From: Acidobacteriales bacterium 13_1_40CM_3_55_5 | GTDB taxonomy: Bacteria > Acidobacteriota > Terriglobia > Terriglobales > Acidobacteriaceae | NCBI GenBank assembly: GCA_001918935.1 | Contig: MNGW01000069.1 | Location: 1 to 49,932 of the forward strand | Direction of reading: 5' to 3' | Length of the DNA: 49,932 nucleotides | Shown: positions 1,224 to 30,747 of the stretch, in pieces | How the letters are laid out: every line of letters starts with the position of its first letter | Position numbering within the stretch: the first letter of the stretch is position 1 | Notes under the pieces: generated by a model | The model's database searches: none | What the model saw: the letters and a program-made list of their open reading frames with translations, nothing else | What the model was told of the DNA's origin: nothing | Program-made: the position numbers and the translations under genes

Positions 1224-1308
1224 GATTTACGATTTACGATTTACGATTGACGAATTCACCACTACCCGCCCTTGATCCGAAATTGAAAATCGTAAATCGA
1301 CAATCGTG
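1224..1308. repeat. inverted heptad repeat, GATTTAC family
   Basis: GATTTAC GATTTAC GATTTAC GATTGAC, about 25-nt spacer, then AAAATCGTAAATCGACAATCG; CGATTTACGATT / AATCGTAAATCG pairs perfectly. Confidence 0.85.
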
Positions 1309-2940
1309 CTTGCCGGTGCTGCGTTGAACCAGCGCTCTCGTTCTTACACAGATTGGCTGCTGCTGGCCGGTTTTTGTGGTTTTTTGTTTTTCTGGGGTCT
1401 CGGATATTTCGGCCTGATTGGCGCCGATGAACCGCGCTATGCCCAGGTAGCGCGCGAAATGCTCGAACGCCGTAATTGGATTACCCCCTTCCTGGATGGC
1501 AAGCCGTGGCTGGAAAAACCTGTCCTCTATTACTGGGAAGCAATGTTGGTCTACAGCGTTGCCGGGGTGAGCGATTGGGCTGCGCGTGTTCCCTCGGCTT
1601 TGAATGCCACCTTGATGTCGATTGCGGTCTATTTATTTCTGCGACGTTTTCGTCCGGCGTTTCAACTCGATGGCGCCCTGATGACAGCCTCGGCAGCGGG
1701 AGTGATTGGCTTTGCCCGCGCCGCGTCCATGGATATGCCACTTGCGGCGATGTTCACGATCGCATTGCTCGGCTGGTATGGTTGGTATGAGAGTGGAGCG
1801 AAGCGTTACCTCGCGCTGTTCTACGTTTCTCTGGGATTGGCAACCCTGGCGAAGGGGCCCGTGGCACCGTTTTTGGCAGCCGCAATCATTATTATTTTTG
1901 CCGTAACCGCCACACACCTGATACTGGTTGTACGCACCTTTTGGATTCCGGGAATTGTTCTCTTTTGTGCGATCACCCTGCCCTGGTACATAGCGGTTCA
2001 AATTAAAAATCCAGAGTTTTTCAGGGTCTTCGTTCTGCAGCACAACTTGGCACGCTTCGGGACTGACCTCTATCAACATAAAGAATCGTTCTGGTATTAC
2101 GTGCCGGTCCTTTTGTTGGGATTGATCCCTTGGACCGTCTTTGTCGCCGCGGCTCTGCTCGACAGCATTCGGGCCTGGTGGTCCGAACGAAAGCAATCGT
2201 TTCAGCCTGAGAATGCATTGAACGTTTTTTTGGTGACCTGGCTGATCGTGCCCGGCGTTTTCTTTTCCTTCTCACAATCGAAACTTCCAGGCTATATGCT
2301 GCCGGCGCTGCCTGCCGGGACATTACTGCTGGCAGAGTACATTCGACGGCGTGTCCTGATGGCGGATCCGCGCCCAGATTATCTCCTAGTAATTTGTCAT
2401 TCGATTGTGGCGGCATTTCCACTGATTCCAGCGCTCATGCTGAACTACATTCCTCTTCAGCATCGACTGCCATGGGGCAGTGCACTTGCGATTTCCAGCG
2501 CACTCGCTGCCGCGCTGGCGATCGCGATGGTGGTGACGTTGCGTACCCAGTTAGGTCTGGGCATGCTCAGGTTTGTGACCCTGATTCCGGTGGTGCTATC
2601 TCTGGCTGCCGTATTGCGCAATGCAGCTCCCACGCTGGATGCAACTCTGTCCGCGCGTCCGCTGGTCAATCAGATCGATCGGATGGAGAACAAGCGATTG
2701 CCCATCGCGGGCTTTCGTCTGTCGCGAGAGACGGAATACGGTCTCGAGTTTTACCGCAATCAGATCATCGCGAGATACAACTGGGGACAGATACCGTTTG
2801 GAGAACATCTAGTTGTTGCCCCAAGCGGACTGCAGAGTGCAATTGCTGAAAAAGTAGCGGACCGGCGCGTGCTGTATCTGGGAACCTTTGCGCCGCAGGG
2901 ATTAGATTATTACTGGGTAGGGGCGAAGGGCAGCCATTAG
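1306..2940 (+). CDS. glycosyltransferase family 39 / ArnT-like membrane protein
   Basis: Multi-TM ORF with GLIGADEPRYAQVAREM and PWLEKPVLYYW motifs; GTG start lies at the edge of the repeat. Confidence 0.87.
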   Translation: MLAGAALNQRSRSYTDWLLLAGFCGFLFFWGLGYFGLIGADEPRYAQVAREMLERRNWITPFLDGKPWLEKPVLYYWEAMLVYSVAGVSDWAARVPSALNATLMSIAVYLFLRRFRPAFQLDGALMTASAAGVIGFARAASMDMPLAAMFTIALLGWYGWYESGAKRYLALFYVSLGLATLAKGPVAPFLAAAIIIIFAVTATHLILVVRTFWIPGIVLFCAITLPWYIAVQIKNPEFFRVFVLQHNLARFGTDLYQHKESFWYYVPVLLLGLIPWTVFVAAALLDSIRAWWSERKQSFQPENALNVFLVTWLIVPGVFFSFSQSKLPGYMLPALPAGTLLLAEYIRRRVLMADPRPDYLLVICHSIVAAFPLIPALMLNYIPLQHRLPWGSALAISSALAAALAIAMVVTLRTQLGLGMLRFVTLIPVVLSLAAVLRNAAPTLDATLSARPLVNQIDRMENKRLPIAGFRLSRETEYGLEFYRNQIIARYNWGQIPFGEHLVVAPSGLQSAIAEKVADRRVLYLGTFAPQGLDYYWVGAKGSH

Positions 2941-3079
2941 CAGCTAAGCGTCGAACCGTAATCCGCGCGCATCCGATATTGCTTGTTCATGTTCCCGCGT
3001 TTGCCTGCTGCTCGCTAAAGCACTACACTCCATTTTCGCGACACCAACGCTTGCCGCTATAGCCTCTCAGGAGCCACGG

Positions 3080-4024
3080 TTGGAAATTCTCGATCTTAGA
3101 CACTTTTCCTCCGTGGACCTGCGTGCCTTGCTGAATGACGAAATCCAGCTGTGGGGCCGGCTTCTTTCGTGGGACTATAGTGGCTCCGCCGATATGATTC
3201 TGCGCTATGTAGACGCGAAAATCCTGCCCGGCTATGCTGCGATTGATCGGGGGCGCATTTTCGGGTACGCATTTTTTGTGTACGAAGGCAGTAAGGGCGT
3301 CATCGGCGATTTGTTTGTGGCTAATGGCGATCGCCTTCCTGACCCTCACGAGGTGGAATCACGCCTGCTGATGCATGTGATTGAAACTCTGCAACAGTCT
3401 CCGGGTATTCATCGCGTCGAAGCGCAATTGCTGGCTCACGAAGCCGGATTGGTTGCGCGTCCCTTCGTGGATCAAGGTTTTCAGCGTCACGCCCGGCTCT
3501 TCATGGTTCTTCCGCTGGTGAAAGCGAGCAAACCGGCAGCCAAGGCTCAATCAGAGATTGAAATCCGGCGTTGGTCGGAGCCCGATTACCAGTCTGCGGC
3601 GGCCGTGATCACTACCGCTTATCGCGGCCACGTGGATTCTCAGATCAACGATCAATACCGCACGCTGAGCGGCTCGTTACGTTTCCTGAATAACATCGTG
3701 CGCTTTCCAGGATGCGGAACCTTTGATCCTGATTCGTCTTTTGTTGCGGTGCACAAGCAGACGCGAAGTTTGGCTGGGCTTATTTTATGTTCTCGAGTGC
3801 GGCATGACGTGGGCCACGTCACGCAATTGTGCGTGCTGCCCGAGTACCGCTCGCATGGAATCGGGCAGTCGTTGCTGGCAGCCACAGCAGTGAATCTTCA
3901 GCAGCGTAATTTCTCAACGCTGTCGCTTACCGTCACTGAGGCCAATACGCACGCCATAGATCTCTATCGCTACTTGGGATTCGATATCAAACGCGTTTTC
4001 GATGCTTTCGTTTGGGAAGGTTAG
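3080..4024 (+). CDS. GNAT family N-acetyltransferase
   Basis: C-terminal QLCVLPEYRSHGIGQSLL...VTEANTHAIDLYRYLGF acetyl-CoA binding signature; TTG start. Confidence 0.87.
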   Translation: MEILDLRHFSSVDLRALLNDEIQLWGRLLSWDYSGSADMILRYVDAKILPGYAAIDRGRIFGYAFFVYEGSKGVIGDLFVANGDRLPDPHEVESRLLMHVIETLQQSPGIHRVEAQLLAHEAGLVARPFVDQGFQRHARLFMVLPLVKASKPAAKAQSEIEIRRWSEPDYQSAAAVITTAYRGHVDSQINDQYRTLSGSLRFLNNIVRFPGCGTFDPDSSFVAVHKQTRSLAGLILCSRVRHDVGHVTQLCVLPEYRSHGIGQSLLAATAVNLQQRNFSTLSLTVTEANTHAIDLYRYLGFDIKRVFDAFVWEG

Positions 4025-4035
4025 ATTTTCGGGAA

Positions 4036-4248
4036 TCAGCGTCTCAGTAACCACATCACCCATCCCGCCACGAAGACTCCGCCCACGAACATTGCGAAGC
4101 AGTAAAGACCGTAACGGATCTGCTCGCGCGCGTCGTTCCGCTGCGTGATGCCGAAAACGATAGAAGCGAATACGGAGAACAGCAATGCGGCGGTGAAATG
4201 GGATAGTTCCAGAGTCATTTGGGCCAGGATCATTTGTGCCATGATCAT
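4036..4248 (-). CDS. small membrane protein
   Basis: 70-aa hydrophobic ORF; start overlaps stop of 4245..4679. Confidence 0.6.
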   Translation of the reverse strand: MIMAQMILAQMTLELSHFTAALLFSVFASIVFGITQRNDAREQIRYGLYCFAMFVGGVFVAGWVMWLLRR

Positions 4249-4679
4249 GGTTTCTTTCCGATAGCGATATGATAAGCGTCTGCCACGCTGATGAAATTCA
4301 GCAGTCCGGCGACAATGATGAATTTCGTGCCATAGTCGGCGGTGGCGTGCGCAATGGCTCCCTGTCCCCAGTCCATAACACGAGTCACGATATAGAGCCC
4401 GCCTGCTCCTAAATCACCGACAAACCCCAGGATGTCGAGAATATCTCCACCATTCGGACGGTAGACACGCCCTTGCATCGCGAGCCCAAGGAAAAACATG
4501 GTAGTGATGGAGAACATGAGCAGCAGGCCACGAATCCAGCGTTTCTGGATGAGGTGACCCGCGCCGGGAATCAGCCAACCCAAGGCGGGCGCGAGCACCG
4601 ACATGGTGGTCATTGGCTGCGTTGTCGTGGAGTTTCTTACTTCCACAGTTTTCGGTTTGCTTACCGACGAATTTGCCAT
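4245..4679 (-). CDS. membrane protein, DUF6677-like
   Basis: LGWLIPGAGHLIQKRWIRGLLL motif and several TM segments. Confidence 0.65.
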   Translation of the reverse strand: MANSSVSKPKTVEVRNSTTTQPMTTMSVLAPALGWLIPGAGHLIQKRWIRGLLLMFSITTMFFLGLAMQGRVYRPNGGDILDILGFVGDLGAGGLYIVTRVMDWGQGAIAHATADYGTKFIIVAGLLNFISVADAYHIAIGKKP

Positions 4680-5852
4680 TCAGATGGTCACGATCTCGTT
4701 TTGAATTTTACCGGTTACTTCCGCCGCCTTAGGCCGGACCAGCACGTTGACTTCGCTGCGGACGCCGAATTCGGGCAGATAAATTCCGGGTTCGATGGAG
4801 AAGCAGGAGTTGGCCAGAATGCGTCGATCATCGTGAACCTCGAGATCGTCCATGTTGGCGCCGTTGGCATGGACATCGGTGCCGATGGAATGCCCGGTGC
4901 GATGAATGAAATATTCTCCGAAGCCGGCCTTTTTTATATGTCCGCGGACCGCTCGATCGACTTCCCATCCAGCGATCTGACGTTCCGCGGCGACAGCTTC
5001 CTTCACGGTCTTCACTCCGGCGTCGCGCGCTTGAGAGACGATCTGGAATATCTCGCGCATACGATCCGATGGGGCCTTGCCCACGGATCCCGTCCACGTA
5101 ATATCGTAGTACACAGCGTCGGGCGTATTCTTCTTGGCCCAGACATCCAGCAGGACGAAATCGCCTTGACGGATGGGGGCAGAAGTCTTTTCCTGCGGCT
5201 CGTAATGCGGGTTGCCGCTGTTGGCATTCACGGCAACGATGGGCGGGTCGTCCGTAATCAGATTTTCACGGGCGAAAGCCTCCATGAACCAGTGTTGAAT
5301 GTCACTCTCGGTTGTGCCGCCATTGCGGACGCGGCGACCGATCTCCTTGAAGGCGGCGGCGGTGATGGAGTCAATCGCATCGCGCGCAGCAAAGTGAGTC
5401 TTGATCTGCTCCTCGGTCCAGGTAGCTTCGAATTGCGCCACCAAGTCACCGGAACTGACCACGTTCTTGCCCAGCCCGCGGATCATTTCCAGCGTGCCGC
5501 CGTCCACCAACGAAACGTAGAAGACCAGGTTGTTCGGCGAATATTGCATGGCGATGTCGCGAAAATTCGATAACATCGCCTTCACCTGGTCGAACAGCTC
5601 TTGCCAGCCCGCATACTGGAGCTTGCTGCCGGGCAGAGTGTCCAGGTGGCCGGATTCAATTTTGTGGACAAGTTTAACCGGCTCTCCCTTGGCAGGGATG
5701 ACATAAAACCACCGTCGCGTGACCATCAGGCCAGCGGGAATTCCAAGAACGCGATATGCAATGGGATCGCGATGGTGATGATCATAGAAGAGCCACGCGT
5801 CCATATTGCGTTCACGCAGGACAGCTTGTATGGCTGGAAGGTTCATCGGCAA
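4680..5852 (-). CDS. M24 family metallopeptidase (Xaa-Pro aminopeptidase-like)
   Basis: FVLLDVWAKK, HRTGHSIGTDVHANGANMDD and SIEPGIYLPEFGVRSEVNV motifs. Confidence 0.92.
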   Translation of the reverse strand: MPMNLPAIQAVLRERNMDAWLFYDHHHRDPIAYRVLGIPAGLMVTRRWFYVIPAKGEPVKLVHKIESGHLDTLPGSKLQYAGWQELFDQVKAMLSNFRDIAMQYSPNNLVFYVSLVDGGTLEMIRGLGKNVVSSGDLVAQFEATWTEEQIKTHFAARDAIDSITAAAFKEIGRRVRNGGTTESDIQHWFMEAFARENLITDDPPIVAVNANSGNPHYEPQEKTSAPIRQGDFVLLDVWAKKNTPDAVYYDITWTGSVGKAPSDRMREIFQIVSQARDAGVKTVKEAVAAERQIAGWEVDRAVRGHIKKAGFGEYFIHRTGHSIGTDVHANGANMDDLEVHDDRRILANSCFSIEPGIYLPEFGVRSEVNVLVRPKAAEVTGKIQNEIVTI

Positions 5853-5936
5853 ACAACCATTCTAAACAACTGCGCGGTTTTGAGCGAATCGTGCTGAGTT
5901 CTATGCGCGCAGCTAGGAAAGAATTTGCTGCTCCAT

Positions 5937-7208
5937 CTAGCTTGCCGGAATGTTGCTGGTACGTACTTTTTTGTCATAAATCCAGAGCAGTGCCGCGGTA
6001 GCCACGCCCACCGCAGTGACAGCCCACCAGATCCGGCCGGGCTGGTGCTTGACCTCTCCGAAATGATGAATCAGCAGTCCACCGAACCAGCCCCCGATAA
6101 GAGATCCGATTCCAATGGGTAAAAAGGCAAATCCCATATATGTCCCCTGTTGACCCGGAGGCGCGAGGCGGGAAATGTATTCGTAGTAACGAGGCGATTG
6201 GGTGATCTCGCCGAGAGAAACCGCGAACAGTGTCACTACCACCATCAGCACTGAGGGATGCACGATCAGAATTACCCACGCGAGGGCTGAAATCAACGTG
6301 CCCAGCGTGATGGCGCGGAGAGCCGGTATCCGTTGCGTGAGAAAACTTACAACCATCTGTAGTGCTATCACGGTCAGTGGCCCGGTGACGAGCAGCAGTT
6401 CGGTGTTCGCGTTTGGATCGATGTAATCATGAACGTACAGAGGCAGGATGATGAATTCTTGCCAGTAGACAATCCAATATCCAGAAAAAATCAAAAGAAA
6501 AAGCATGAAGCGCGGGTTGGAGAGGACAGTTACGAAATTTTTTGCTGCCTGGCCCAGGCTGACGGTCTGCGTCTCACCCGAGCGCTGCGGCTCTTTAAAG
6601 AACAGCAACACGGCGAAGAACATTAAAAACACGCTCAATGCCGCCACACGAAATACATTTTCCACACTCATGTGCTGGTGGACCCAGGATGCGACGTACG
6701 GTCCAGCAGCTCCGCCGATGTTCACTAACGTGTAATAAATGGAATAACCGATGGAACGAACGTTCTCCTTGGACGCGCGCGCTGTTGTCCCGACGACGCA
6801 AGGCTTGACCAGCGCGATGCCCAGAGCAGGGAGCATCAACACCAGAGCTACCAGCACGCCCAGCGGCATGGCATTGCGGATAGGAGCGAGCCAAGATGCC
6901 CCCAGGGATCCGAGTAAGAAGTACGAGCAACTGAGGATCAGGTAGGCTAGCGACAGTGACCGTCGAAAGCCGAGCCGGTCGGCGAGAGTTCCGCCGAATG
7001 CAGCTAGAAACCATACCAGTCCGCCGAATAATCCAGTCAGGCTGCTGGCTTGCTTGACGTCAAAATTCAAACTCTCGTGAAGATACCGCGCAAGAGAAGC
7101 GAAGGCAGCGTAGTAAGACAGCCGTTCGAACAGTTCGCTGATGTTCGCGACCCAGAAGGGACGCTCGAAGCCGGTGCGAATCTCATGCAGGCGTTCGGCA
7201 AAGGTCAT
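5937..7208 (-). CDS. MFS transporter (POT/peptide-like)
   Basis: 12-TM-like ORF; SIYYTLVNIGGAAGP and Lx3ADRLGFRRSL motifs. Confidence 0.85.
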   Translation of the reverse strand: MTFAERLHEIRTGFERPFWVANISELFERLSYYAAFASLARYLHESLNFDVKQASSLTGLFGGLVWFLAAFGGTLADRLGFRRSLSLAYLILSCSYFLLGSLGASWLAPIRNAMPLGVLVALVLMLPALGIALVKPCVVGTTARASKENVRSIGYSIYYTLVNIGGAAGPYVASWVHQHMSVENVFRVAALSVFLMFFAVLLFFKEPQRSGETQTVSLGQAAKNFVTVLSNPRFMLFLLIFSGYWIVYWQEFIILPLYVHDYIDPNANTELLLVTGPLTVIALQMVVSFLTQRIPALRAITLGTLISALAWVILIVHPSVLMVVVTLFAVSLGEITQSPRYYEYISRLAPPGQQGTYMGFAFLPIGIGSLIGGWFGGLLIHHFGEVKHQPGRIWWAVTAVGVATAALLWIYDKKVRTSNIPAS

Positions 7209-7224
7209 TGAGTTCTCTCTGAGC

Positions 7225-7251
7225 GTGTGGCGCGGGCGCCCTCGCCCGCGT
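7225..7251. repeat. GC-rich hairpin repeat, copy 1
   Basis: gtgtggcgcgggcgccctcgcccgcgt; internal stem CGCGGGCG-ccct-CGCCCGCG; matches reverse complement of 8329..8355 at 26/27. Confidence 0.9.
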
Positions 7252-7573
7252 CATTGCGACGCGAATAAAGCCTTCCTGACTTCCTCGGCAGCCAGTCCTG
7301 TCACACGGATGATCTTCCTGCGGCTGCTTTGGCCGGACGCTATGGTAACGGAGGAACGCGGAACCTTCAAAAGATTTGCCAGGAATTCGATACAGGCCTG
7401 GTTGGCGCGCGGCCGTCCGATGCAGGGGCCGCGACCGACAGCTTGAGCGCGTCGCCGAGTTCGCCGGCGATAGCATTTTTCTTGGCGTGCGGATGCACGT
7501 TGACGGCAAAGAGTATGGATGCCGCTAAGGCATTTTTCTGTCGCCAAAGATCGCTGTGCCTAGCCGCACACAC
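7251..7573 (-). pseudogene. yggU: DUF167/YggU family protein, frameshifted
   Basis: N-terminal half ILFAVNVHPHAKKNAIAGELGDALKLSVAAPASDGRA in one frame; C-terminal half NQACIEFLANLLKVPRSSVTIASGQSSRRKIIRV in another; junction at GC run about 7404-7412. Confidence 0.8.
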
Positions 7574-8229
7574 GTCGAGCCTTCCTCAATGGCGATTTCA
7601 AAGTCGTAAGACATCCCCATGGAGAGCATGTTCATGTTCACTCCGGGCAACTGACGCGTGCCGATCTCCTCTTGCAGTTCACGCAGTTTCCGAAAATACG
7701 GCCGCGCTTCTTGCGGATTGTCCGTGAGCGGAGGAATCGTCATCAAGCCGCGAATTTCCAGATGCTCCAACAAATGTGAAGCCTGAAGAATTTTTTCCAG
7801 CTCCTGCGAGCCAGGCGCTACACCAGTCTTGGCAGCCTCGCCTCCTACGTTGATTTCGACCAACACTCCTAGCTTCTTGCCGACTTGTTGTGCGGCGGAG
7901 TTGAGCTTCTGGGCAAGCCGCAGTGAGTCAATCGAGTCCACGGCGCCGAATAACTCAGCCGCCTTGGCAGCTTTGTTGGTCTGCAGATGACCGATCATGT
8001 GCCACTCGGCATCTGATAAATCCCGCAAAGCGTCGACTTTCCCGGCAAATTCCTGGACGCGGTTTTCGCCGAACACTCGCATTCCCGCCAAGTGAGCTGC
8101 ACGAATGAGCTCTGGCGGAACGGTCTTGCTCACTGCCATCAGCGTGACCGCATCCGGATCGCGTCCAGTTCGTTTGGCCGCAGCATTCATTCGTTCGCGG
8201 ACCATGGCAATGTTGTCTGCGACCGGCAT
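7525..8229 (-). CDS. yggS: YggS family PLP-binding protein
   Basis: VTLMAVSKTVPPELIRAA, GENRVQEF, WHMIGHLQTNKAAKA, LSMGMSYDFEIAIEEGSTCVRLGTAIFG; start set at MPVADNIAMVRERM. Confidence 0.93.
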   Translation of the reverse strand: MPVADNIAMVRERMNAAAKRTGRDPDAVTLMAVSKTVPPELIRAAHLAGMRVFGENRVQEFAGKVDALRDLSDAEWHMIGHLQTNKAAKAAELFGAVDSIDSLRLAQKLNSAAQQVGKKLGVLVEINVGGEAAKTGVAPGSQELEKILQASHLLEHLEIRGLMTIPPLTDNPQEARPYFRKLRELQEEIGTRQLPGVNMNMLSMGMSYDFEIAIEEGSTCVRLGTAIFGDRKMP

Positions 8230-8243
8230 GGATAAAACAATAA

Positions 8244-8273
8244 ACCACGAAGGACACGAAGTTACACGAAGGA
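8244..8273. repeat. nonamer tandem repeat (ACACGAAGG-like, 3 copies)
   Basis: CCACGAAGG ACACGAAGT T ACACGAAGG just upstream of yggS start. Confidence 0.75.
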
Positions 8274-8328
8274 AGGCTAAGAAACGTTTTTTGGTACGGC
8301 TAACTTCGGGTTGGAGCCTTGCCTGGGG

Positions 8329-8355
8329 ACGCGGGCGAGGGCGCCCGTGCCACAC
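8329..8355. repeat. GC-rich hairpin repeat, copy 2 (inverted relative to 7225..7251)
   Basis: acgcgggcgagggcgcccgtgccacac. Confidence 0.9.
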
Positions 8356-8362
8356 GTTTCGA

Positions 8363-10408
8363 TCACATCATGGCTACCGGCGGCGCCGGTTCGTTGGGGT
8401 CGCCGGCACTCGATAGCGGAAGTCGGATCATCAGAACGGCCAGAGCAATCATCACGGCGATTCCGGCAACATATGACTGATTGCTAAACACCTGAGGTCG
8501 GGCCCAGGCGGGTGCGAATTGCAATCCGGCCCACACCAGTCCAAGGATAGCTTCGCCGGCGATGAGGCCGGAAGCGGTGAGCACGCCGGCATTCTCAACG
8601 CGTGCTTTCTGCGCCTGATTGAATCCGCGGCGTTGGGCCACCCAATCTCCGAGGGAGCGGAAAACTCCACCGAGGAATATTGCGAATGTGGTCTCAAACG
8701 GCAGATACATACCGACTGCCACCAGCATGGGGCTGCGCACCTGCATCATGATTAACCCAATGCCCATAAATATGCCGACCACCACCAGCGGCCATGGCAT
8801 CTCGCCGCCCACGATTCCCATGGCTAGCGTGGCCATTAGTCCAGCTTGGGGAGCGGAGAGTTGGCGGTCTCCAAATCCGACTCCGCCGGCTTTGATGTTG
8901 GCTTCGTGCAGCAACATGAGGGGAAAGTACATCACCAGACTTGCCACTACGACCGCGATTAATTCCGCCATCTGGATCTTGCGAGGCGTGCCTCCCAGGA
9001 TGTATCCGACTTTAAAGTCCTGAAGCAGTTCTCCTGCTACTGCCGAGGAAACGCAAACCACAGTAGCAACGCCGAGCACCGCGGCCACGCCGGCGTTTCC
9101 AGAAACTCCCAGCGCAACCATGAGCAAAGCCGCAACCAGCAAAGTCGAGAGAGTTAATCCTGAAATCGGATTGTTGGACGATCCGATGAATCCGACTAGA
9201 TTGCCGGAAACAGTCGCGAAGAAGAAACCGACAAAAATCATCACCACGGCTGCCAAAATGGCCGGCCAAACCAAACCGGTAATATGAATATAAAGAAAGC
9301 ACATGAGCACGAACATGAGGGCAATCAATCCGAAAACAACCTTCGAGCTCATATATTGTTCAGTGCGCGAAAGTTGGGCTCGCTGCGCGGCAGTCTGTCG
9401 CAGGTCAGCGAATGCTTTGCCCAGGCCGGCAGTCAGGCTCTTGCGCATTTTGAATAACGTATACGCGGCCCCTACAAGCATTCCGCCTACGGCGATGGGA
9501 CGCACGATGAACCTCCATACCGCAGCCGCGATGGCTGCCCAGTTATCGGGCGTGTCGGATGGCAGGTATTGTTTGAGTTGAGGGCCGAGAAAGAAGATGA
9601 GCAGAGGAACCATCAGTCCCCAGGCCAGCACACCGCCGGCAAATTGGAGGGCGGCAAGACGCAGCCCGATAATGTATCCAACTCCTAAGTAAGCGGGACT
9701 CACGCTCGGCGCCGCGAACATGCTGGTTCCTCCTGCGGCCACCAGGTTCGTGCTTCCTGCCGTACCCAAACGAACTTGGCTATGACCGAGACTGCCTACC
9801 ACAGGATGGAAATCTTTATCGGCGGCGAATAAACCGAAGCGTCCGAGCATATACACCACACCGCCGATGCCGATATTCCAGAAAAGATATTTCGCAGCTT
9901 GTGCGCCTCGCTGGCCGGCTTTATGAATTTCTGCGGCGGCCACGGATTCTGGGAACGGGAGTTCCGGGTCCTCCACCATCACCCGCCGCACTAGAGAAAT
10001 GAAAAGCACCCCCAGTATGCTGCCCACCATAATCAACGCCGTGGATTTCCAGTAGGCGTCGGCGGGACGAAAAGAAGTCCAGGCCCGAGAAAGCAAGAAA
10101 GCAGGAATGGTGAAAATCGCGCCAGCGGCAACGGACTCTCCGATGGAGCCGGCGGTACGGGCAATGTTTTCTTCCAGCAGCGATCCCTTCCACGCCCGCA
10201 GGACGGCCATGGCAATTACCGCGGCAGGATAGGTTGCCGCAATCGTGATTCCCGCGCGCAAACCCAGATAAGCATTGGCCGAGCCCAGAACCACCGTCAT
10301 AACCAGTCCCAGCAAAACCGCCCGGAGGGTAAATTCCTTCATTTCCACGGTTTCGGGCACAAATGGTTGGTGCTTCCTGGGGCTGTTCACCGTAATTTCG
10401 GTGCTCAT
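8363..10408 (-). CDS. OPT family oligopeptide transporter
   Basis: 681-aa multi-TM ORF; FTLRAVLLGLVMTVVLGSANAYLGLRAGITIAATYPAAVIAMA is characteristic of the OPT family. Confidence 0.92.
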   Translation of the reverse strand: MSTEITVNSPRKHQPFVPETVEMKEFTLRAVLLGLVMTVVLGSANAYLGLRAGITIAATYPAAVIAMAVLRAWKGSLLEENIARTAGSIGESVAAGAIFTIPAFLLSRAWTSFRPADAYWKSTALIMVGSILGVLFISLVRRVMVEDPELPFPESVAAAEIHKAGQRGAQAAKYLFWNIGIGGVVYMLGRFGLFAADKDFHPVVGSLGHSQVRLGTAGSTNLVAAGGTSMFAAPSVSPAYLGVGYIIGLRLAALQFAGGVLAWGLMVPLLIFFLGPQLKQYLPSDTPDNWAAIAAAVWRFIVRPIAVGGMLVGAAYTLFKMRKSLTAGLGKAFADLRQTAAQRAQLSRTEQYMSSKVVFGLIALMFVLMCFLYIHITGLVWPAILAAVVMIFVGFFFATVSGNLVGFIGSSNNPISGLTLSTLLVAALLMVALGVSGNAGVAAVLGVATVVCVSSAVAGELLQDFKVGYILGGTPRKIQMAELIAVVVASLVMYFPLMLLHEANIKAGGVGFGDRQLSAPQAGLMATLAMGIVGGEMPWPLVVVGIFMGIGLIMMQVRSPMLVAVGMYLPFETTFAIFLGGVFRSLGDWVAQRRGFNQAQKARVENAGVLTASGLIAGEAILGLVWAGLQFAPAWARPQVFSNQSYVAGIAVMIALAVLMIRLPLSSAGDPNEPAPPVAMM

Positions 10409-22293: not shown

Positions 22294-22330
22294 AAAAAGG
22301 CCTCCAGGCTCGACTCCTGGAGGCCACCTT
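22294..22330 (-). terminator. Rho-independent terminator, minus strand
   Basis: Minus strand GGCCTCCAGgagtcgagCCTGGAGGCC followed by TTTTTTATT; downstream of queG. Confidence 0.85.
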
Positions 22331-22446
22331 GCCCTCTACCGCCACTAGATTATGGCGAGGCAATCACAGCGTTCACCCCACGCAGAATTGCTCATGCATG
22401 ACTTCTATTCAGGTTAGAACTAGAGCAAGGCGGGTTGGTTGCCTGC

Positions 22447-23565
22447 CTAGCCGAGGGAAAGTTTCTGCTCCGCCCAGCGCGCATGTTCTGCGACGATCGG
22501 GTCTTCATCTTCGGTTAAGCGATCGAGCACCGGTTTAAAGCGCGGATCTCCACTATTTCCCATTGCAATCGCCGCGTTGCGCCGCAGCCCGCCTCTTTTC
22601 GCCCGCCGCACTGGAGATCCGCGGAATGTCTGTTGAAATTCCTCGCCGCTCATTTCCGCCAACCAGTCGAGCGCAGGATTCACCAATCCTTCTCGCGGTT
22701 TAAATTCTGCTGCAGTCGTAGCGGGCGCCTTGCGATTCCAGGGACACACATCCTGACAGATGTCGCATCCAAAGACATGCCGACCCATTGCGCCCCGAAT
22801 TTCTTCCGGAATCATGCCTCGCTTTTCAATGGTCAGATAAGAAATACATTTGTTGGAATCGAGTTGATACGGTGCAATCAGAGCGTCCGTAGGACAAGCA
22901 TCAATGCAACGTGTGCAGCTTCCGCAGCGATCCGGCGCCGGGAGATCAGCTCCCAGTTCGAGCGAAGTCAGGATGACACCGAGGAACAACCACGATCCGA
23001 TCTTCTGATTCAGAATGCACGTGTTCTTGCCGATCCAGCCAACTCCCGCGTATTTTGCATACACGCGTTCCACCACTGGGCCGGTATCCACATAGCAGCG
23101 GGTTTGAGGTTGACCCGCCGAGAGTGGGTCGCGGACGGCGGAATCCTTCGCGGTAGTCTGCCCGCGGGGATCGCTGCAATGTTGGTTCAGGGCGGCCTCG
23201 ACCAGACGTAGTCGCTTCATCACTGCGTTGTGATAATCCTCTTGGCCCCAGGCATATCTTGAAATCCATCCTCGTCTCGAGTCGTTTACCTGGGTAGAGA
23301 GTGGCTGTGCCGTGTTGTAGTTGATTGCGCACACGATCACACTGCGGGCCCAGGGAATCGTGGAGCGAAGGGAAGCGCGTTTCAGTTGCCCGGCCTCGTG
23401 CCGCGCTTTCAGGTATTCCATGTCACCCGCATGGCCGGCGTCGATCCAGTCCGCAAAACGATCCAGTTCAGGGAAATCCCGGACCGAGGCGATCCCGGCG
23501 AGCCCAAATCCCGCATCGCGAGCAGCCTGTTTGACGAACGCAGTGATGTCGGAGAGGGGAGGCAT
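22447..23565 (-). CDS. queG: epoxyqueuosine reductase
   Basis: CGSCTRCIDACPTDALI and CDICQDVCPWNRKAP 4Fe-4S motifs; YVDTGPVVERVYAKYAGVGWIGKN. Confidence 0.95.
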   Translation of the reverse strand: MPPLSDITAFVKQAARDAGFGLAGIASVRDFPELDRFADWIDAGHAGDMEYLKARHEAGQLKRASLRSTIPWARSVIVCAINYNTAQPLSTQVNDSRRGWISRYAWGQEDYHNAVMKRLRLVEAALNQHCSDPRGQTTAKDSAVRDPLSAGQPQTRCYVDTGPVVERVYAKYAGVGWIGKNTCILNQKIGSWLFLGVILTSLELGADLPAPDRCGSCTRCIDACPTDALIAPYQLDSNKCISYLTIEKRGMIPEEIRGAMGRHVFGCDICQDVCPWNRKAPATTAAEFKPREGLVNPALDWLAEMSGEEFQQTFRGSPVRRAKRGGLRRNAAIAMGNSGDPRFKPVLDRLTEDEDPIVAEHARWAEQKLSLG

Positions 23566-23580
23566 GGTTGAAAGAAGACT

Positions 23581-23705
23581 CTGAGGTCTCAGGTCCCAGG
23601 TCTTAGGTCGCAGGGTCAGCTCTTGATCGAAGTCCGATATCGACGCGGGGAGTTAGGCCTGAGACATTCTGGCACTTGACACCCGAGACCTGACACCTGA
23701 GGCCT
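23581..23705. repeat. inverted heptad repeat, AGGTCTC family
   Basis: AGGTCTC AGGTCCC AGGTCTT AGGTCGC ... spacer ... GACACCCGAGACCTGACACCTGAGGCCT. Confidence 0.85.
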
Positions 23706-23711
23706 ACGGCG

Positions 23712-23987
23712 CTACACACCCAGTTTCTTCACTTCCTCGTTGTAATACTTGCGGTAGAGGATGTCCCATTCCTGGCTGCCTTCTAGAATTGTACGCTTCT
23801 GATTTTCGATCTTGTGTCTTGCCGCCTGGTCGATTTTCTCTTCCTGATTGAGCAGGTCTTCCAAAATCTTTCGCACTTCCAGCCGGAGAGTGTTTCGGTC
23901 TTCAAGAAACTCAACCTCGCCCATCTCTGCCAGAGCGTCGGTGACCACGTGCGCCACCTTATTTACTTTGTCGCGGCTAACTCTCAC
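23712..23987 (-). CDS. DUF507 family protein
   Basis: 91 aa; MRVSRDKVNKVAHVVTDAL...ILEGSQEWDILYRKYYNEEVKKLG. Confidence 0.82.
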   Translation of the reverse strand: MRVSRDKVNKVAHVVTDALAEMGEVEFLEDRNTLRLEVRKILEDLLNQEEKIDQAARHKIENQKRTILEGSQEWDILYRKYYNEEVKKLGV

Positions 23988-24262
23988 AGCACGGCCTTGT
24001 ATTTACGTACTAATTCATTCTTCACTTTGCGAAACATCTCCTGATAATTTGCGCCGCTCTTGCGCATTTCTTCCGAATAGGCTTCCAGGATCACTCGCAC
24101 TTCGTCATTGATTCGGTCCTCCAATGTTAATTCCTCAAGCATGGAGGCGTGCACTTTTTGGGTTAACGCGGAAGCGTCCTTGGTCTCAATGAACTCGCCA
24201 GCAAGCAATTTTTTGGTGAGTTCGCGGGCCAGATAGCCCACATATTCTTTCGAAAGAAGCAT
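23984..24262 (-). CDS. DUF507 family protein
   Basis: MLLSKEYVGYLARELTKKLL...GANYQEMFRKVKNELVRKY; overlaps start of second DUF507 gene by 4 nt. Confidence 0.82.
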   Translation of the reverse strand: MLLSKEYVGYLARELTKKLLAGEFIETKDASALTQKVHASMLEELTLEDRINDEVRVILEAYSEEMRKSGANYQEMFRKVKNELVRKYKAVL

Positions 24263-24308
24263 GATGCGGATCGAAGGTGTGTTGTGAAACAGGTAGTGTA
24301 GCACAGGG

Positions 24309-24482
24309 AGCAGTCAGCACTCAGCATTCAGCATTCAGCCGTTAGGGCATGGCTGAGGTTGCATACAAAAGCCAAAGCTAGGTGGGGGTTTTTGTCTATC
24401 TCCTATTACCGAGAAGGGCTGAATGCTGACTGCTGACTGCTGAGTGCTGAATGCTAAGTCCTGAATGCCGACTGCCGAATCG
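24309..24482. repeat. inverted heptad repeat, GCATTCA family
   Basis: GCAGTCA GCACTCA GCATTCA GCATTCA ... spacer ... TGAATGC TGACTGC TGACTGC TGAGTGC TGAATGC TAAGTCC TGAATGC CGACTGC. Confidence 0.88.
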
Positions 24483-24542
24483 CTCACTCCCCTAGTACCC
24501 ATCCATCAAAAGTCATACAATGCTGACTTACCCAGAGTCTTT

Positions 24543-25019
24543 ATGTCTCCCGCGCCTGACGATCTGTGCAGCCTCAAAGACGATATGATCGCCTTCATCG
24601 AAGGGCATGGTATGCGCCGCTTCCACGGCTATGTGGATTATGAAGAAGTACCCAGCGTGATGTGGAAATCGGAGGACAACCCTGATAGCTGGAAAGACTT
24701 TGTGGAACTCGCCAAGGCGGCGAGCGCGCCTTTCCTCATCACCGATTCCTGGACATTGCGAAAGGAAGAACTGGAACAGCTTCTTCAGCGCCTGGCGAAC
24801 ACCGAATTTACTAACGACGAAGATATGGAAGATGCGCGCTGGCTGCGCACCTATGTAGGCAAGACCGGATTCGTGCAGTTGGCATTCGCTCATGAAGGCA
24901 TCATGCTGGTTTATGAGTCTTCCACTCCCTGGTACGATCACTATCAACGCTTGCTCGAGGTCGCCGAAGACTTCGGTGGCATTCCCATCGACGAACCTGA
25001 TCAGGATGACGAAAGCTAG
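24543..25019 (+). CDS. conserved hypothetical protein
   Basis: Acidic soluble ORF (MSPAPDDLCSLKDDMIAFIEGHGMRRFHGYVDYEEVPS...); 2 nt upstream of recJ. Confidence 0.75.
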   Translation: MSPAPDDLCSLKDDMIAFIEGHGMRRFHGYVDYEEVPSVMWKSEDNPDSWKDFVELAKAASAPFLITDSWTLRKEELEQLLQRLANTEFTNDEDMEDARWLRTYVGKTGFVQLAFAHEGIMLVYESSTPWYDHYQRLLEVAEDFGGIPIDEPDQDDES

Positions 25020-25021
25020 CC

Positions 25022-26854
25022 GTGCGCTGGGTTCTTCGAACCGCCGAGCTGGCCCGAGTCCAGGATCTTGCTGAAAATCTACGTTCAGATTCCGCGCTTC
25101 GTCTGAATAATTCCACCCTCGCCTCAACTCTGGCTCGGTTGCTGGTACTGCGTGGTATCACGGACATTGAATCCGCCCAACGTTATCTCGCACCGTCGCT
25201 TGTACATTTGCACTCACCTTACCTCATGACCGGCATGAAGGCCGCACTCGATCGATTGGAAGCGGCCATCGAACGCGAGGAAGGCATCCTGATTTACGGC
25301 GACTACGATGTTGACGGCACCACCGCGATTGTCATTCTCAAGACCGCCATCGAACTCTGTGGAGGCGCTGCTGACTTCCATGTTCCACACCGTATTCGCG
25401 AAGGCTACGGCATGAAAGATGATGTCATCGAGCGCGCCGCCGCTGCTGACATTCGCCTGATCATCAGTGTTGATACTGGAATCCGGGCTCTCGATGCGGC
25501 GCGAACAGCTCAGCGACTCGGCATTGACTTGATCGTCACCGACCACCACTTGGCGGGAAAAGATGGTGTGCCCAGTGCGCTTGCCGTGCTTAATCCCAAT
25601 CGGCCGGGCTGCGATTATCCATGCAAAGACCTCTGCGGGGCGGGAGTTGCATTCAAGCTGGCGCAAGGATTGATGGAACGGCGGCTGGCACAGAATGATC
25701 AGTCACGCCTCTTGACGTCGTTCATGAAGATGGTAGCGATCGCGACCATCGCCGATGCTGTTCCTCTCACCGGAGAAAACCGCGTGTTTGCCAAACTTGG
25801 ACTTGAAGCGCTGCGCTCTCCAGTAAACCTCGGCCTGCGCGCACTATTCGAAGTCGCGCAAGTCGGCGGACGGGCGCTCACTTCAGGAGAAGTGGCATTT
25901 CGCATTGCGCCCCGACTGAACGCGGCAGGACGCATGGACGTGGCTCGCGACGTTATCGAGCTTTTCAGTGTAAAAGATTCCGCGCGGGCGAAAGAGATCG
26001 CGAACCGGCTGGATCAGCTCAATGCTGAGCGTCAGCAAGAAGAGCGTCGCATTCTGGATGCGATCGACGCCCGCTTCATTGACGACCCGGCGCTGCACGA
26101 TGCTTTCTGCATCGTAATTGACGGAGACGGCTGGCATCGCGGCGTGATTGGAATCACCGCCACGCGGATCGTCGAGCGTTATGGCCGGCCCGCACTGGTA
26201 ATTTCGCGAGAAGGTGACGAATGCCACGGTTCTGGACGTTCCATCTCTGCATTCCACCTGCTCAATGCACTCGAATCATGCGCCGATATTTTTACCCGAT
26301 ATGGCGGACATGCCCACGCTGTCGGTTTTTCTCTCTCCAGCTCCCGCTTGGTCGAGTTGCGCACGCATTTGGACGAATATGCCCATGCGCGTCTGACTAT
26401 GGCTGACTTCGAGCCGGTCCTTAATCTCGATGCTCCCCTTCCACTCGAGCACATCACGCCTGAGCTGTTTCAGGCTCTCTGCCGCCTTGAACCATTCGGC
26501 ATGGGAAATCCGGAACCCGTCTTCAGCGCGTGTGCTGTTCGCACGACGGCTCCGCCGCGACTCATCAAAGATAAGCACGTGAAGCTGAAGCTGGCGCCAT
26601 CACTGGACAATCAAGAAGCAGGTTCCTCTGAACCGAACTGGAGACGATCGCTTCAATTCGACGCATTAGGGTGGCACATGGCCGCGGCGGTGCAGAAGGC
26701 CCAACTCTTACCGGGCGATACTCTCGATATCGCCTTCAGCATCGATCAAAACGACCATCCTGAATTCGGCGGCTTAGAACTCTCGCTGCGGGACATCAAA
26801 GCCAAAACCGCGGATGTAGCGGAAAACAAGTTGATGCGCGCCATAGGGAACTGA
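25022..26854 (+). CDS. recJ: single-stranded-DNA-specific exonuclease RecJ
   Basis: ILIYGDYDVDGTTA, ISVDTGI, VTDHHLAG, GGHAHAVGFS motifs; GTG start. Confidence 0.95.
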   Translation: MRWVLRTAELARVQDLAENLRSDSALRLNNSTLASTLARLLVLRGITDIESAQRYLAPSLVHLHSPYLMTGMKAALDRLEAAIEREEGILIYGDYDVDGTTAIVILKTAIELCGGAADFHVPHRIREGYGMKDDVIERAAAADIRLIISVDTGIRALDAARTAQRLGIDLIVTDHHLAGKDGVPSALAVLNPNRPGCDYPCKDLCGAGVAFKLAQGLMERRLAQNDQSRLLTSFMKMVAIATIADAVPLTGENRVFAKLGLEALRSPVNLGLRALFEVAQVGGRALTSGEVAFRIAPRLNAAGRMDVARDVIELFSVKDSARAKEIANRLDQLNAERQQEERRILDAIDARFIDDPALHDAFCIVIDGDGWHRGVIGITATRIVERYGRPALVISREGDECHGSGRSISAFHLLNALESCADIFTRYGGHAHAVGFSLSSSRLVELRTHLDEYAHARLTMADFEPVLNLDAPLPLEHITPELFQALCRLEPFGMGNPEPVFSACAVRTTAPPRLIKDKHVKLKLAPSLDNQEAGSSEPNWRRSLQFDALGWHMAAAVQKAQLLPGDTLDIAFSIDQNDHPEFGGLELSLRDIKAKTADVAENKLMRAIGN

Positions 26855-26935
26855 TTGTTCGCTGAATTTCGTGTCTGTTCATTTTCAAATCCTTGCTTTA
26901 CACAAAACCCTTGCGAAGCTAATATTCACCCCTGC

Positions 26936-27514
26936 ATGCCAGACCAAATCGTTTTCTGTAATCAATGCGGGAGTCAGAATACGGCGGGAGCAACCTTCTG
27001 CTCGAAATGTGGCGGTTCCCTTGGCGGCGTTGCTCAACCTCTCGCAGCTACTTCCGCTCATCCGTTGGCTGTGCCAGTCCGCTACGGCGGTTTTTGGATT
27101 CGGTTCGTGGCAGCTATCATCGATGGCATTCTCGTGCAAGTCGTTGTCGTTCCGGTTGGCGCCCTCTTGGGCGGGATGATTGGCGTCGCCGGTGTGGCTG
27201 CACGCATGCCTGGAGAGGGAACGCGACTGGTTGCTGTCATTGTTGGGGCCGCACTCGGCTTACTTGCTTCGTGGATCTACGAAGCCGCTATGGAAAGTTC
27301 ATCTCTTCAAGCGACACTGGGCAAGATGATATTCGGGATGAAGGTCACAGACCTGAACCGCAACCGCATATCCTTCGCGCGCGCCACCGGGCGTCACTTT
27401 GCGAAATATCTTTCCAGCATGATTCTGTTCATCGGTTACATCATGGCTGGCTTTACCGAGCGCAAGCAGGCGCTGCACGACATAATCGCCAGTACAGTGG
27501 TGGTTCGCCGCTGA
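26936..27514 (+). CDS. RDD family membrane protein with N-terminal zinc ribbon
   Basis: FCNQCGSQNTAGATFCSKCGGSL; YGGFWIRFVAAIIDGI and TLGKMIFGMKVTDLN. Confidence 0.9.
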   Translation: MPDQIVFCNQCGSQNTAGATFCSKCGGSLGGVAQPLAATSAHPLAVPVRYGGFWIRFVAAIIDGILVQVVVVPVGALLGGMIGVAGVAARMPGEGTRLVAVIVGAALGLLASWIYEAAMESSSLQATLGKMIFGMKVTDLNRNRISFARATGRHFAKYLSSMILFIGYIMAGFTERKQALHDIIASTVVVRR

Positions 27515-27530
27515 GGCCGCTGCCTGTGGG

Positions 27531-27628
27531 ATTGCCGGCGGGACGCCGGCGCTACTCTTCTCTTCGACCTGATTCTCCACACGTGATCGCGACGGTAAGC
27601 TCGAGACCTGATACCGGGCACCTGACGC
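27531..27628. repeat. GCCGGC palindrome plus partial ACCTGA heptads
   Basis: GCCGGCgggacGCCGGCGCTAC; then CGAGACCTGATACCGGGCACCTGACGCC, resembling CGAGACCTGACACCTGAGGCC at 23684-23705. Confidence 0.6.
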
Positions 27629-27652
27629 CACCCTGCATTACACTATTTCCAC

Positions 27653-29908
27653 ATGCCTCTTCGAATTCCTCGTCTTCGTCGATGGTTTGCTGGCGGCGCC
27701 ATCCTCGTGGTCTTACTCGTTGCCGGCGCTTATTTCTATGCTAAGTGGCGGGTGAGTAATGCACTCCAGGAGGTACCGGAAAAAATCGGGATCAATATCG
27801 AACAGACTGCACAAGGATTTACGGTATCGCGCTCCGCGGCAGGCCGCACGATTTTCAAAGTTCAAGCCAATCGAGCGGTGAAATTCAAGGAGGGTGCTCG
27901 CGCGGAGTTACACGATGTGATGATCACCCTCTACGGACATGATTCCACCCGCTTCGATCAGATATATGGCGCCGATTTTGAATACGATAGCCAATCCGGG
28001 GATATTACCGCCAAGGGTGAAGTCAATATCGATCTCGAAGCCAATCCGGAAGGTTTGATCAAACCCGATCAGGCGCCTCCCAAGGAATTGAAGAATCCCA
28101 TTCACTTGAAGACCACCGGCCTGATCTTCAATCAGAAGACCGGGAACGCTTATACAAAAGAACTAGTCCAGTTCAGCATTCCGCAGGCCAATGGGTCAGC
28201 GGTGGGGGTGAACTATGTGGGCAAGGACAACGTGCTTACGCTGCAATCGCAGGTGAACGTGATTTTCAACGGCCCAACCCCTTCAAAGTTGACAGCCGAT
28301 CATGGAACTATCATCAAAAACCCAAAACAGGTTCTGCTCCAACACCTGCATCTGCAAAGCAGGGATAAACAACTGGATGCAGACAAGGCGACACTCTTTC
28401 TCCGTCCAGATAATGTGCTGGATCGTGTTCTCGCCAGCGGCAATGTCCTCGTGCAATCGGAGACCGATCCAATCACACGGATTCGCGCTGCCCAACTGGA
28501 CGCCCTCATGGGTGCGAAGGGCGATACATTCCGCCAAGCTGTGCTTTCTGGCAACGTTCAACTGGATAGGGCAGGACCTCAGGCCATGCAGGGGACTGCA
28601 GGGCGTGTGGTCATGAATTTTTTGGCTAAGAACCTGTTAAACACTGTGCACACCGAAGGAAGTGTCAAGTTAGTGCAGCATCAAAAATCGACTACCCCGT
28701 CATCGCCCGCACAAGATCTCGAAGTCACAGCCTCGGCCATCGATTTTTTTCTGGCGGGCGGAAATCGTTTGGACCACGCTCACACTTCCGGCCCTGCACA
28801 AATAGCCTTGCGAACTACGGAGGGCGGTGCGCGACCGCAGACCGTAGTCACTGCGGGAAAATTTCAAGCACGCTTCAGCAAGCTGGGTCGCCTGGCATCG
28901 GTTCACGGCGCCCCGAATGCGCGCATCACCACCAGCAATCCTGGCCAACCTGATCGGATCAGCAGCAGCAATACGGTTGACGCAAGCTTTGGCGCCAGCG
29001 GCGCTCTTGATTCAATCGTGCAGCAAGGTGCCGTCGCTTATGTGGACGGCGGCCGCAAAGCTTGGGCTGAACGTGCTCGCTACACGCCTGCCGACCAGAT
29101 GCTCGTACTTGTCGGAGCTCCGCGTGTGGTCGAACAAGGGATGACCACCACGGCCAACACCATGCGACTGAACCGATCCACAGGAGAGGCTCTTGCCGAT
29201 GGCAACGTCAAGAGTACTTACAGCGAACTTAAGGCACAACCGAATGGAGCGCTGCTGGCCTCTTCATCTCCGATTCATGTGACTTCGCAATCCATGAGGG
29301 CTCAGCGCTCTCCGGCAATCGCGGTGTACACCGACAATGCTCGTCTTTGGCAGGACGCCAATGTGGTGCAAGCGCCCACCATTGAGTTTGATCGCGATAA
29401 GCGATCCGTTATCGCTCGCGGAACTGGTGCGCAAAAAGTCTCCACCGCGCTGGTGCGGACCGACAAGAACGGCAAGACGACTCCGGTGGCGATCACTTCA
29501 GCTCGCCTCACTTATGCCGATAATGAACGTAAGGCTCATTTCGATGGAGGAGTGCTTGCCAAAGGCGCCGACCTGACGATTAGCGCGAACCAGATGGATG
29601 TTTTCTTGCAAGCCAGAGGGCAAGCAACAGCCAATCAGTCGGTTACGACAGTGGGCAAAGTAGAACGGATCGTGGCCCAGGGCCAGATTGTGGTGACTCA
29701 GCCAGCTCGCCGGGCGACAGGGCAGCAGCTGATTTATACGGCTGCGGAGGATAAGGTCGTGTTGACCGGCGGACCGCCTAGCATTTTTGATGCCGAACAT
29801 GGCAAGATTACCGGGGTTTCGTTGACTTTCTACATACACGATGATAGGGTTTTGGTGGAAGGAAGCAATTCATCCCCCACCGTCACGCAGACGCGAGTGG
29901 CACGATAA
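27653..29908 (+). CDS. LptC-LptA/OstA-like fusion, LPS transport
   Basis: 751 aa; N-terminal TM then LptC-like region, followed by OstA-like repeats; directly upstream of lptB. Confidence 0.85.
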   Translation: MPLRIPRLRRWFAGGAILVVLLVAGAYFYAKWRVSNALQEVPEKIGINIEQTAQGFTVSRSAAGRTIFKVQANRAVKFKEGARAELHDVMITLYGHDSTRFDQIYGADFEYDSQSGDITAKGEVNIDLEANPEGLIKPDQAPPKELKNPIHLKTTGLIFNQKTGNAYTKELVQFSIPQANGSAVGVNYVGKDNVLTLQSQVNVIFNGPTPSKLTADHGTIIKNPKQVLLQHLHLQSRDKQLDADKATLFLRPDNVLDRVLASGNVLVQSETDPITRIRAAQLDALMGAKGDTFRQAVLSGNVQLDRAGPQAMQGTAGRVVMNFLAKNLLNTVHTEGSVKLVQHQKSTTPSSPAQDLEVTASAIDFFLAGGNRLDHAHTSGPAQIALRTTEGGARPQTVVTAGKFQARFSKLGRLASVHGAPNARITTSNPGQPDRISSSNTVDASFGASGALDSIVQQGAVAYVDGGRKAWAERARYTPADQMLVLVGAPRVVEQGMTTTANTMRLNRSTGEALADGNVKSTYSELKAQPNGALLASSSPIHVTSQSMRAQRSPAIAVYTDNARLWQDANVVQAPTIEFDRDKRSVIARGTGAQKVSTALVRTDKNGKTTPVAITSARLTYADNERKAHFDGGVLAKGADLTISANQMDVFLQARGQATANQSVTTVGKVERIVAQGQIVVTQPARRATGQQLIYTAAEDKVVLTGGPPSIFDAEHGKITGVSLTFYIHDDRVLVEGSNSSPTVTQTRVAR

Positions 29909-30637
29909 ATGCGTACTCTGGCCACGGACGAAATCGGCAAGTCTTATCGTGGTCGCCGGGTTGTAAATGGAGTCAGCCTCCGCGTCGAGCAGGGCGAAGT
30001 CGTTGGTTTACTTGGACCTAACGGCGCTGGCAAAACCACTACCTTCTACACCATAGTGGGCCTGATCCCCCCTGACACAGGCCGGGTGTTAATCGACGAC
30101 GAAGATATCACGGACGTACCCATGTACTTGCGGGCGCGTCAGTTTGGAATCAGCTATCTCCCCCAAGAAGCTTCTGTGTTTCGCAAGCTGACCGTTGAGG
30201 AAAATATCCTCGCGGTGCTGGAAGCGCAGCCTATCTCCTGGCATGAGCGCCGGGAGAGGATGGAGAAGTTGATCGATCAGTTAGGACTGGAGCATATCCG
30301 GCTAAATCGCGGGTACGCGCTCTCCGGGGGCGAGCGGCGACGGGTGGAAATCGCGCGCGCCTTGTGCATCAATCCGACATTTATTTTGCTGGATGAGCCG
30401 TTTTCCGGGATCGACCCGATCGCTGTGCTCGATTTGCAGAAGATTATCAGTGACTTAAAGGCGAGCGGGATTGGAGTGTTGATCACCGATCACAATGTGC
30501 GGGAGACGCTTTCGGTCACCGATCGCGCCTACATTATTAATGTAGGACGAATCTTCCGCCAGGGAACGCCAGAGCAGTTGGGCGGCGATCCCGAAGTGCG
30601 GCGCGTATATCTGGGCGAGAGTTTCTCGCTAGTGTGA
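29909..30637 (+). CDS. lptB: LPS export ABC transporter ATP-binding protein
   Basis: [68 protein letters not shown]. Confidence 0.96.
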
Positions 30638-30642
30638 AAGCC

Positions 30643-30747
30643 GTCGTTAGCGCTTGGTCGTTGGTCGTTCGCACAATCAAGAACGACCCGCAATCAACAG
30701 CCAAGGGCGAATGACCAACTACGAAGACCAAGGACCAACGACCAGCC
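30643..30747. repeat. inverted heptad repeat, TTGGTCG family
   Basis: TTGGTCG TTGGTCG TTCGC ... GCGAATGACCAAC ... GACCAAGGACCAACGACCAGCC; GGTCGTTGGTC / GACCAACGACC pairs over 11 bp. Confidence 0.88.

Follow-up and report, generated by a model that had tools for sequence, protein, structure and literature searches.

The window analysed here is a stretch of 49,932 nucleotides (contig MNGW01000069.1) from Acidobacteriales bacterium 13_1_40CM_3_55_5, a metagenome-assembled genome that is 74% complete. Four of its gene junctions hold repeat elements, hereafter A to D, each made up of a degenerate tandem array of a seven-letter word (heptad), a spacer, and an array of the same word in inverted orientation. 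This shared architecture, reported in an earlier note, is confirmed both by direct reading and by a pair detector that seeks an array with an inverted partner of the same word no more than 180 nt away. All four elements lie between protein genes, none is inside a 23S rRNA gene and none carries a gene. The analysis draws on sequence data alone, from sampled contig stretches with mechanical gene calls. The parts of the elements are as follows:

Element A, 5' arm: 1224..1257, plus strand; GATTTAC three times, then GATTGAC and GAATTC; starts 3 nt past the stop of the open reading frame (ORF) at 972-1220
Element A, spacer: 1258..1278, no strand
Element A, 3' arm: 1279..1307, minus strand; AAATCGT in the sense direction; ends at the GTG start of the PMT_2 glycosyltransferase ORF 1306-2940
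Element B, 5' arm: 23581..23613, plus strand; AGGTCTC, AGGTCCC, AGGTCTT, AGGTCGC
Element B, spacer: 23614..23668, no strand
Element B, 3' arm: 23669..23706, minus strand; CTGACAC and CTGAGAC units; its end is about 6 nt away from the stop of the DUF507 gene
Element C, 5' arm: 24309..24345, plus strand; AGCANTC four times
Element C, spacer: 24346..24413, no strand; unrelated to the spacers of other AGCATTC elements
Element C, 3' arm: 24414..24480, minus strand; about nine TGANTGC units
Element D, 5' arm: 30643..30672, plus strand; TTGGTCG units; starts 5 nt past the lptB stop
Element D, spacer: 30673..30706, no strand
Element D, 3' arm: 30707..30744, minus strand; CGACCAA units; leaves 3 nt to the rpoN ATG (30748)

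At the three co-directional junctions (A, B and D) the element begins 3-6 nt past a stop codon, in keeping with the description of these elements as filling gene junctions. Element B separates the DUF507 gene from queG, both on the minus strand, and element C lies between divergent genes. The weakest tandem array of the four is that of element D (30643-30747).

The period of seven is specific. A lag scan of the window at a score of at least 12 returns three places at lag 7 (also seen at the multiple 14) and one array at lag 15, with no arrays at lags 2-6 or 8-13. The pair detector recovers exactly elements A to D at lag 7, and finds nothing in the window at lags 5, 6 and 8-13, nothing in local shuffles and nothing in 50 kb of E. 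coli. The enrichment extends across the genome, so the lack of enrichment that the earlier note had named as refuting did not occur: 217 kb of systematically chosen contigs contain 13 arrays at lag 7 (score of at least 11) vs between 0 and 3 at each of the remaining lags in the range 4-13. When this sample is combined with the rpoN regions of 80 relatives (1.33 Mb, from records named Acidobacteriales or Terriglobales; the nearest, MNDG01000149, belongs to the same genus), 141 lag-7 arrays are obtained, of which 82 have an inverted partner of the same word within 200 bp, six a direct partner and five a swapped-word partner. Arrays at lag 8 behave similarly (inverted partner in 24 of 32), and those at other lags scarcely do so.

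The gene family that appears to be the key partner of these elements lies outside the window, beyond the view of the earlier note. Three array pairs have long spacers of 328-407 nt, and both of those from the own genome enclose a gene of the PF05635 family (23S_rRNA_IVP, also S23; hereafter IVP), which encodes a four-helix-bundle protein. Among the best-scoring search matches to this family, inverted 7- or 8-nt arrays of one word bracket 64 of 76 loci: 29/34 in close Acidobacteriota relatives, 22/28 in the wider phylum and 13/14 on plasmids of Cyanobacteriota, Azospirillum and Riemerella. Bracketing is found for 4/316 ORFs of similar size and for 38/380 mismatched pairs of IVP flanks (Fisher p 4e-57, computed with an earlier control count of 3/316). 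Each of the five IVP genes found in the window genome has such brackets, the words being GGTCTCA, AGCATTC, AGTGGCC, CAGTTTC and TTACGAT. GGTCTCA, around the IVP gene of locus L177, is the word of element B, and AGCATTC, around that of L178, is the word of element C; the word of element A stands on both sides of a degraded IVP gene at another place in the genome (L181). Overall, nine of 11 distinct gene-less words, including those of A, B and C, match an IVP-flanking word of the same genome with the same polarity and at most one mismatch. If five words are instead drawn from other genomes the mean is 1.8, and none of 5000 draws reaches nine.

The association also holds between genomes. In 29 genomes without PF05635 (601 kb) there are no elements, only three low-complexity arrays, vs 18 elements and 44 arrays in 36 genomes with PF05635 (641 kb, window genome excluded). 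Word sharing (at most one mismatch) depends on the similarity of the proteins, from 75% of pairs with IVP identity of at least 80%, through 31% at 60-80%, to 0.6% at 35-45%; this steep fall indicates that words drift faster than the protein. IVP genes share the strand of their upstream neighbor in 51 of 67 cases. Proteins of solved structure that IVP resembles in sequence are 2gsc, a pentamer of four-helix bundles (PMC4990558, PMC10053308), and 2rld. IVP also weakly matches the model of Avd from diversity-generating retroelements, a kinship already stated (PMC10053308). A resident reverse transcriptase, considered as a requirement, does not seem to be needed, as many IVP-bearing genomes, some of them incomplete, have no RVT_1 match (e.g., G002, G005, G008, G009, G011, G024, G037, and G051). 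A RAYT (REP-associated tyrosine transposase) or other Y1 transposase was likewise discounted as a partner, with no arrays near three Y1_Tnp genes. An IVP gene of G043 (L195:1834-2034) has an array on one side only, some 28 AGAGCGC heptads long, and this array lacks an inverted partner.

Plasmids capture the elements in alternative states. One Nostocales plasmid site is empty in Nostoc linckia and Tolypothrix and filled in Trichormus variabilis by a 428-nt unit insertion in which IVP is the sole gene. At the same site Scytonema has an IVP element with two heptads fewer than that of Trichormus variabilis, Nostoc C052 a truncated IVP, and Brasilonema a gene-less hairpin. Direct repeats flank the insert at three plasmid sites: GTAAT, which takes in the upstream stop codon, at the filled site just described, and TTCTA and GTCA at two others. 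Some cyanobacterial plasmid IVP elements (L260, L267, L270) are situated inside CRISPR-cas operons (cas6/cas4; cas10/cmr3), and the cas10-cmr3 junction is empty in Picosynechococcus PCC 7002.

What these elements have in common is period and layout rather than sequence, as originally suggested, and 45 distinct seven-letter words were counted in the relatives and own-genome sample. The heptads do differ among the four loci, but the accompanying view that they are locus-specific was rejected, since words recur throughout the genome and in other species with a fixed polarity. The GCATTCA word of the locus at 24309 matches dozens of further places in the window genome, identical words are present in other species, and among recurring words 125 same-word pairs are concordant in polarity and none discordant. 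Variant units hold a core constant and differ at one position. The 3' arm is enriched in cores of the CTGA type, though these are not universal, and a YGA core common to all words was rejected, since it too is only enriched (56% of 3' arm words vs 27% expected). Copying of whole elements including the spacer is ruled out, as elements with the same word have unrelated spacers. Mirror-image arms, which would have testified to a paired RNA, were also rejected because the order of variant units is no better mirrored than in permuted arms (P=0.95). As the arms are not unit-by-unit mirrors, sequence-exact pairing is not what preserves the word, which is more likely to be kept by recognition or homogenization. 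In one relative (L097; 120-260, 2780-2900, 9860-9980, 11750-11880, and 16390-16540) near-identical arms surround unrelated spacers; these arms consist of AGAGGTC or AGAAGTC plus a fixed AGATTGC unit, and in either arm most units have undergone the G/A changes in concert.

Elements are placed at gene 3' ends more often than at divergent promoters. With a simple ORF caller and junctions of at least 60 nt, co-directional and convergent junctions together are occupied in 79 of 664 cases and divergent ones in 11 of 195 (p=0.011), and density per bp is equal at co-directional and convergent junctions and lower at divergent ones. The median distance from the upstream stop to the element at co-directional junctions is 4.5 nt. 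A preference for co-directional and convergent junctions is also known for REP (repetitive extragenic palindromic) sequences (PMC3733652).

Comparison of orthologous junctions, another check put forward in the earlier note, reveals replacement by other words, hairpins of unrelated kinds and empty sites. In G001, a relative of the same genus, elements A, C and D are still present with independently altered arm lengths; the 3' arm of A is conserved, the 3' arm of C differs in length independently of its 5' arm, and the ortholog of B has lost its 5' arm. The lptB-rpoN junction, occupied here by element D, contains in relatives GTCGTTG, the octad GTTTCAAA, AGTTCTC, CAGTGGT, AGAGGTC, other words, unrelated hairpins, or no element. 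On a FastTree RpoN tree of 79 species, with labels assigned by hand, this amounts to approximately 40 label changes or more (at least 40 counted), often between sisters, and alignments of sister genomes reveal exchange in its entirety of what stands between conserved flanks. Other sequences occur at the same junction. A motif of constant length, 66 nt (GTTACCAAGGCGT...CCTTTCGTG...CATGAGAAG), is found in one clade (L110:9859-9924, with equivalents in L080, L097, L105-L107, L112, L118-L120, L124, and L125); it has no match in Rfam and no covariation support from RNAalifold. Repeat hairpins of the form GTCATTCCGA...GAGGAATCT replace heptad elements in L074, L116, L121, L123, and L125, as do CACGAAGG-type hairpins in L062, L065, L091, L101, L108, and L113. 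Elsewhere in the window, DUF507 (PF04368, 182 positions) is split over two overlapping minus-strand ORFs (23712-24304), one for each half of the model.

A known RNA family was rejected, an Rfam scan of the window having returned no match. Plus-strand folds of all four loci beat dinucleotide shuffles (z -3.3 to -4.9), a comparison suggested in the earlier note, but any inverted repeat would do as much, and one minus-strand fold is not significant (z -1.6).

We consider it likely that A to D belong, as non-autonomous members without a gene, to a family of selfish elements that insert into DNA and whose gene-bearing members encode IVP, which supports the suggestion of a mobile repeat class made among several in the earlier note. 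Each element pairs two inverted arrays of a single word of 7 nt, in some cases 8 nt, and gene-bearing members have one gene, IVP, between the arms; its product is the four-helix-bundle protein familiar, outside this context, from intervening sequences (IVSs) of 23S rRNA. Insertion between genes, mostly just past a stop codon, would give rise to a hairpin whose position outside coding sequence makes it tolerable. Slippage would alter the number of heptads, and newer elements with different words would supplant older ones at the same junction. Gene-less copies probably rely on IVP in trans, given the word and polarity that they hold in common with IVP elements of the same genome; we infer that IVP recognizes the word arrays and drives mobility or maintenance of the hairpins in this way. 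By analogy with 23S rRNA IVSs, the transcribed hairpin may also be processed by RNase III. Several observations count against this interpretation. Transposition was not observed, and neither a recombinase nor a nuclease activity is known for IVP. A general target duplication was not detected, the flanking repeats of decayed elements being no better than permuted pairs. The two arms do not mirror each other in the order of their variant units, and exact pairing is thus not preserved. For TTGGTCG, the word of element D, the incomplete own genome offers no matching IVP gene, three IVP-bearing genomes of family f2 (60 kb) gave no elements, and a few families dominate the IVP-less sample. A third factor could also underlie both gene-less elements and IVP genes.

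Could the arrays be maintained for another reason? Selected REP-like RNA hairpins, acting irrespective of sequence in transcript stabilization or termination at gene 3' ends or in translation coupling, would fit the close spacing behind stop codons, the depletion of divergent junctions and the repeated refilling of the lptB-rpoN junction with hairpins. Yet insertion that avoids damage predicts the same placement, mirrored pairing is not kept, and many orthologous junctions are empty or have unrelated hairpins, so that we regard this explanation as unlikely, although such a function may be a secondary role of the elements. It is rather improbable that the arrays are sites at which a DNA-binding protein, regulatory or of the nucleoid, oligomerizes in steps of 7 or 8 bp, such as IHF/HU or a ribbon-helix-helix protein (e.g., omega or MetJ), regulating the genes at the junction. 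Arrays bound by ribbon-helix-helix proteins are compatible with both 7- and 8-bp steps, and the retention of a core in units that vary at one position fits such binding. Paired heptanucleotide arrays of Geobacter have been interpreted in this way, with IHF/HU proposed there (PMC2700814). This account sits poorly with the strict convergent polarity and the preference for gene 3' ends over divergent promoters, and with the dozens of words found in each clade, the exchange of words at single junctions, unit insertion and the link to IVP.

Neutral replication slippage with hairpin template switching, operating at each junction on immobile repeats, has the merit that heptads are the commonest long simple repeat in many bacterial genomes and that polymerase slippage has been given as their origin (Mrazek, cited in PMC4679880); the independent shifts in arm length between sister genomes also accord with it. 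It nevertheless does not account for filled and empty sites or for the bracketing of one gene family, nor for a word and polarity that are identical at many unrelated loci, and elements are absent from IVP-less genomes but not from IVP-bearing ones. Pure slippage, one of the origins first entertained for these loci, is thus very improbable.

The statement that no counterpart had been described proves too strong, three systems being comparable with the inserted elements proposed here. The 23S IVS of Coxiella burnetii is 428 nt long and has an S23p ORF preceded by tandem heptamers (GACAGAT); it is excised by RNase III, its heptamer number varies between strains, and it has been called a selfish element (PMC4990558). 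It too has a PF05635 gene alone within inverted ends, and its length equals that of the Trichormus insertion, whereas the window elements are intergenic instead of within 23S rRNA, mostly gene-less, present in many copies per genome, and built from dozens of interchangeable words. Classes 1-3 of Geobacter metallireducens, termed "predicted global regulator binding sites" and read as protein-binding sites in the description concerned, are tandem heptanucleotides (MTYCTGA) or octanucleotides in opposite-strand pairs at variable distance (PMC2700814). Judged by that published description, the class 3 arrangement of opposite-strand heptad pairs with variable spacing is also that of the window elements, and the Geobacter words MTYCTGA and TCTCCGTS are found in Acidobacteriota, but the passages describing these classes mention neither IVP nor mobility. 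In the P6b stems of Nostoc trnL introns (class I TDNGATT, class II NNTGAGT), degenerate inverted heptads form a hairpin and whole words are repeatedly replaced at one site; these stems are within a group I intron and involve two words only, and no IVP link is mentioned in the passages on them (PMC4476775).

Other repeat classes are more distant. REP, BIME (bacterial interspersed mosaic element) and REPIN (REP doublet forming a hairpin) sequences resemble the elements in being intergenic hairpins with gene-less copies and a rare gene-bearing partner, RAYT (PMC3733652), but they are 20-40 bp palindromes with GTAG or CGTC tags and a Y1 transposase and lack a heptad period, whereas the arms here are many-worded 7/8-nt arrays. 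Cyanobacterial STRR (short tandemly repeated repetitive) sequences and the TAACTGA repeats of Beggiatoaceae are also intergenic heptanucleotide tandem repeats, but they are direct and mostly of one word, with an inverted partner in only one of 170 TAACTGA sets (PMC4679880); the many words and the inverted partners of most arrays described above set the present elements apart from them. A miniature inverted-repeat element of a DDE transposon was rejected as a candidate because end sequences vary (45 words) and no fixed-length target duplication was detected. No paper tying such arrays to IVP outside rRNA was found in the literature searched, subscription literature excepted.

A bolder and more doubtful possibility is that IVP/S23, kin of Avd, alone confers mobility on a widespread class of transposon that has no known recombinase and requires no reverse transcriptase. 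Ends would be recognized by repeat period and by the self-consistency of the word, so that words could be swapped freely, and intergenic heptads across phyla, trnL P6b stems and 23S IVSs would all be its products. The reading of the window elements as inserted relatives of IVP-bearing elements would bring intergenic heptads, the paired arrays of Geobacter, the word-swapping trnL stems of Nostoc and 23S IVSs into one family with one small protein. It raises the question of how an element retains its 7-nt period and polarity while its sequence changes, and it would provide IVP/S23, present in several phyla without an assigned role, with a testable substrate, namely the word array that flanks its own gene.

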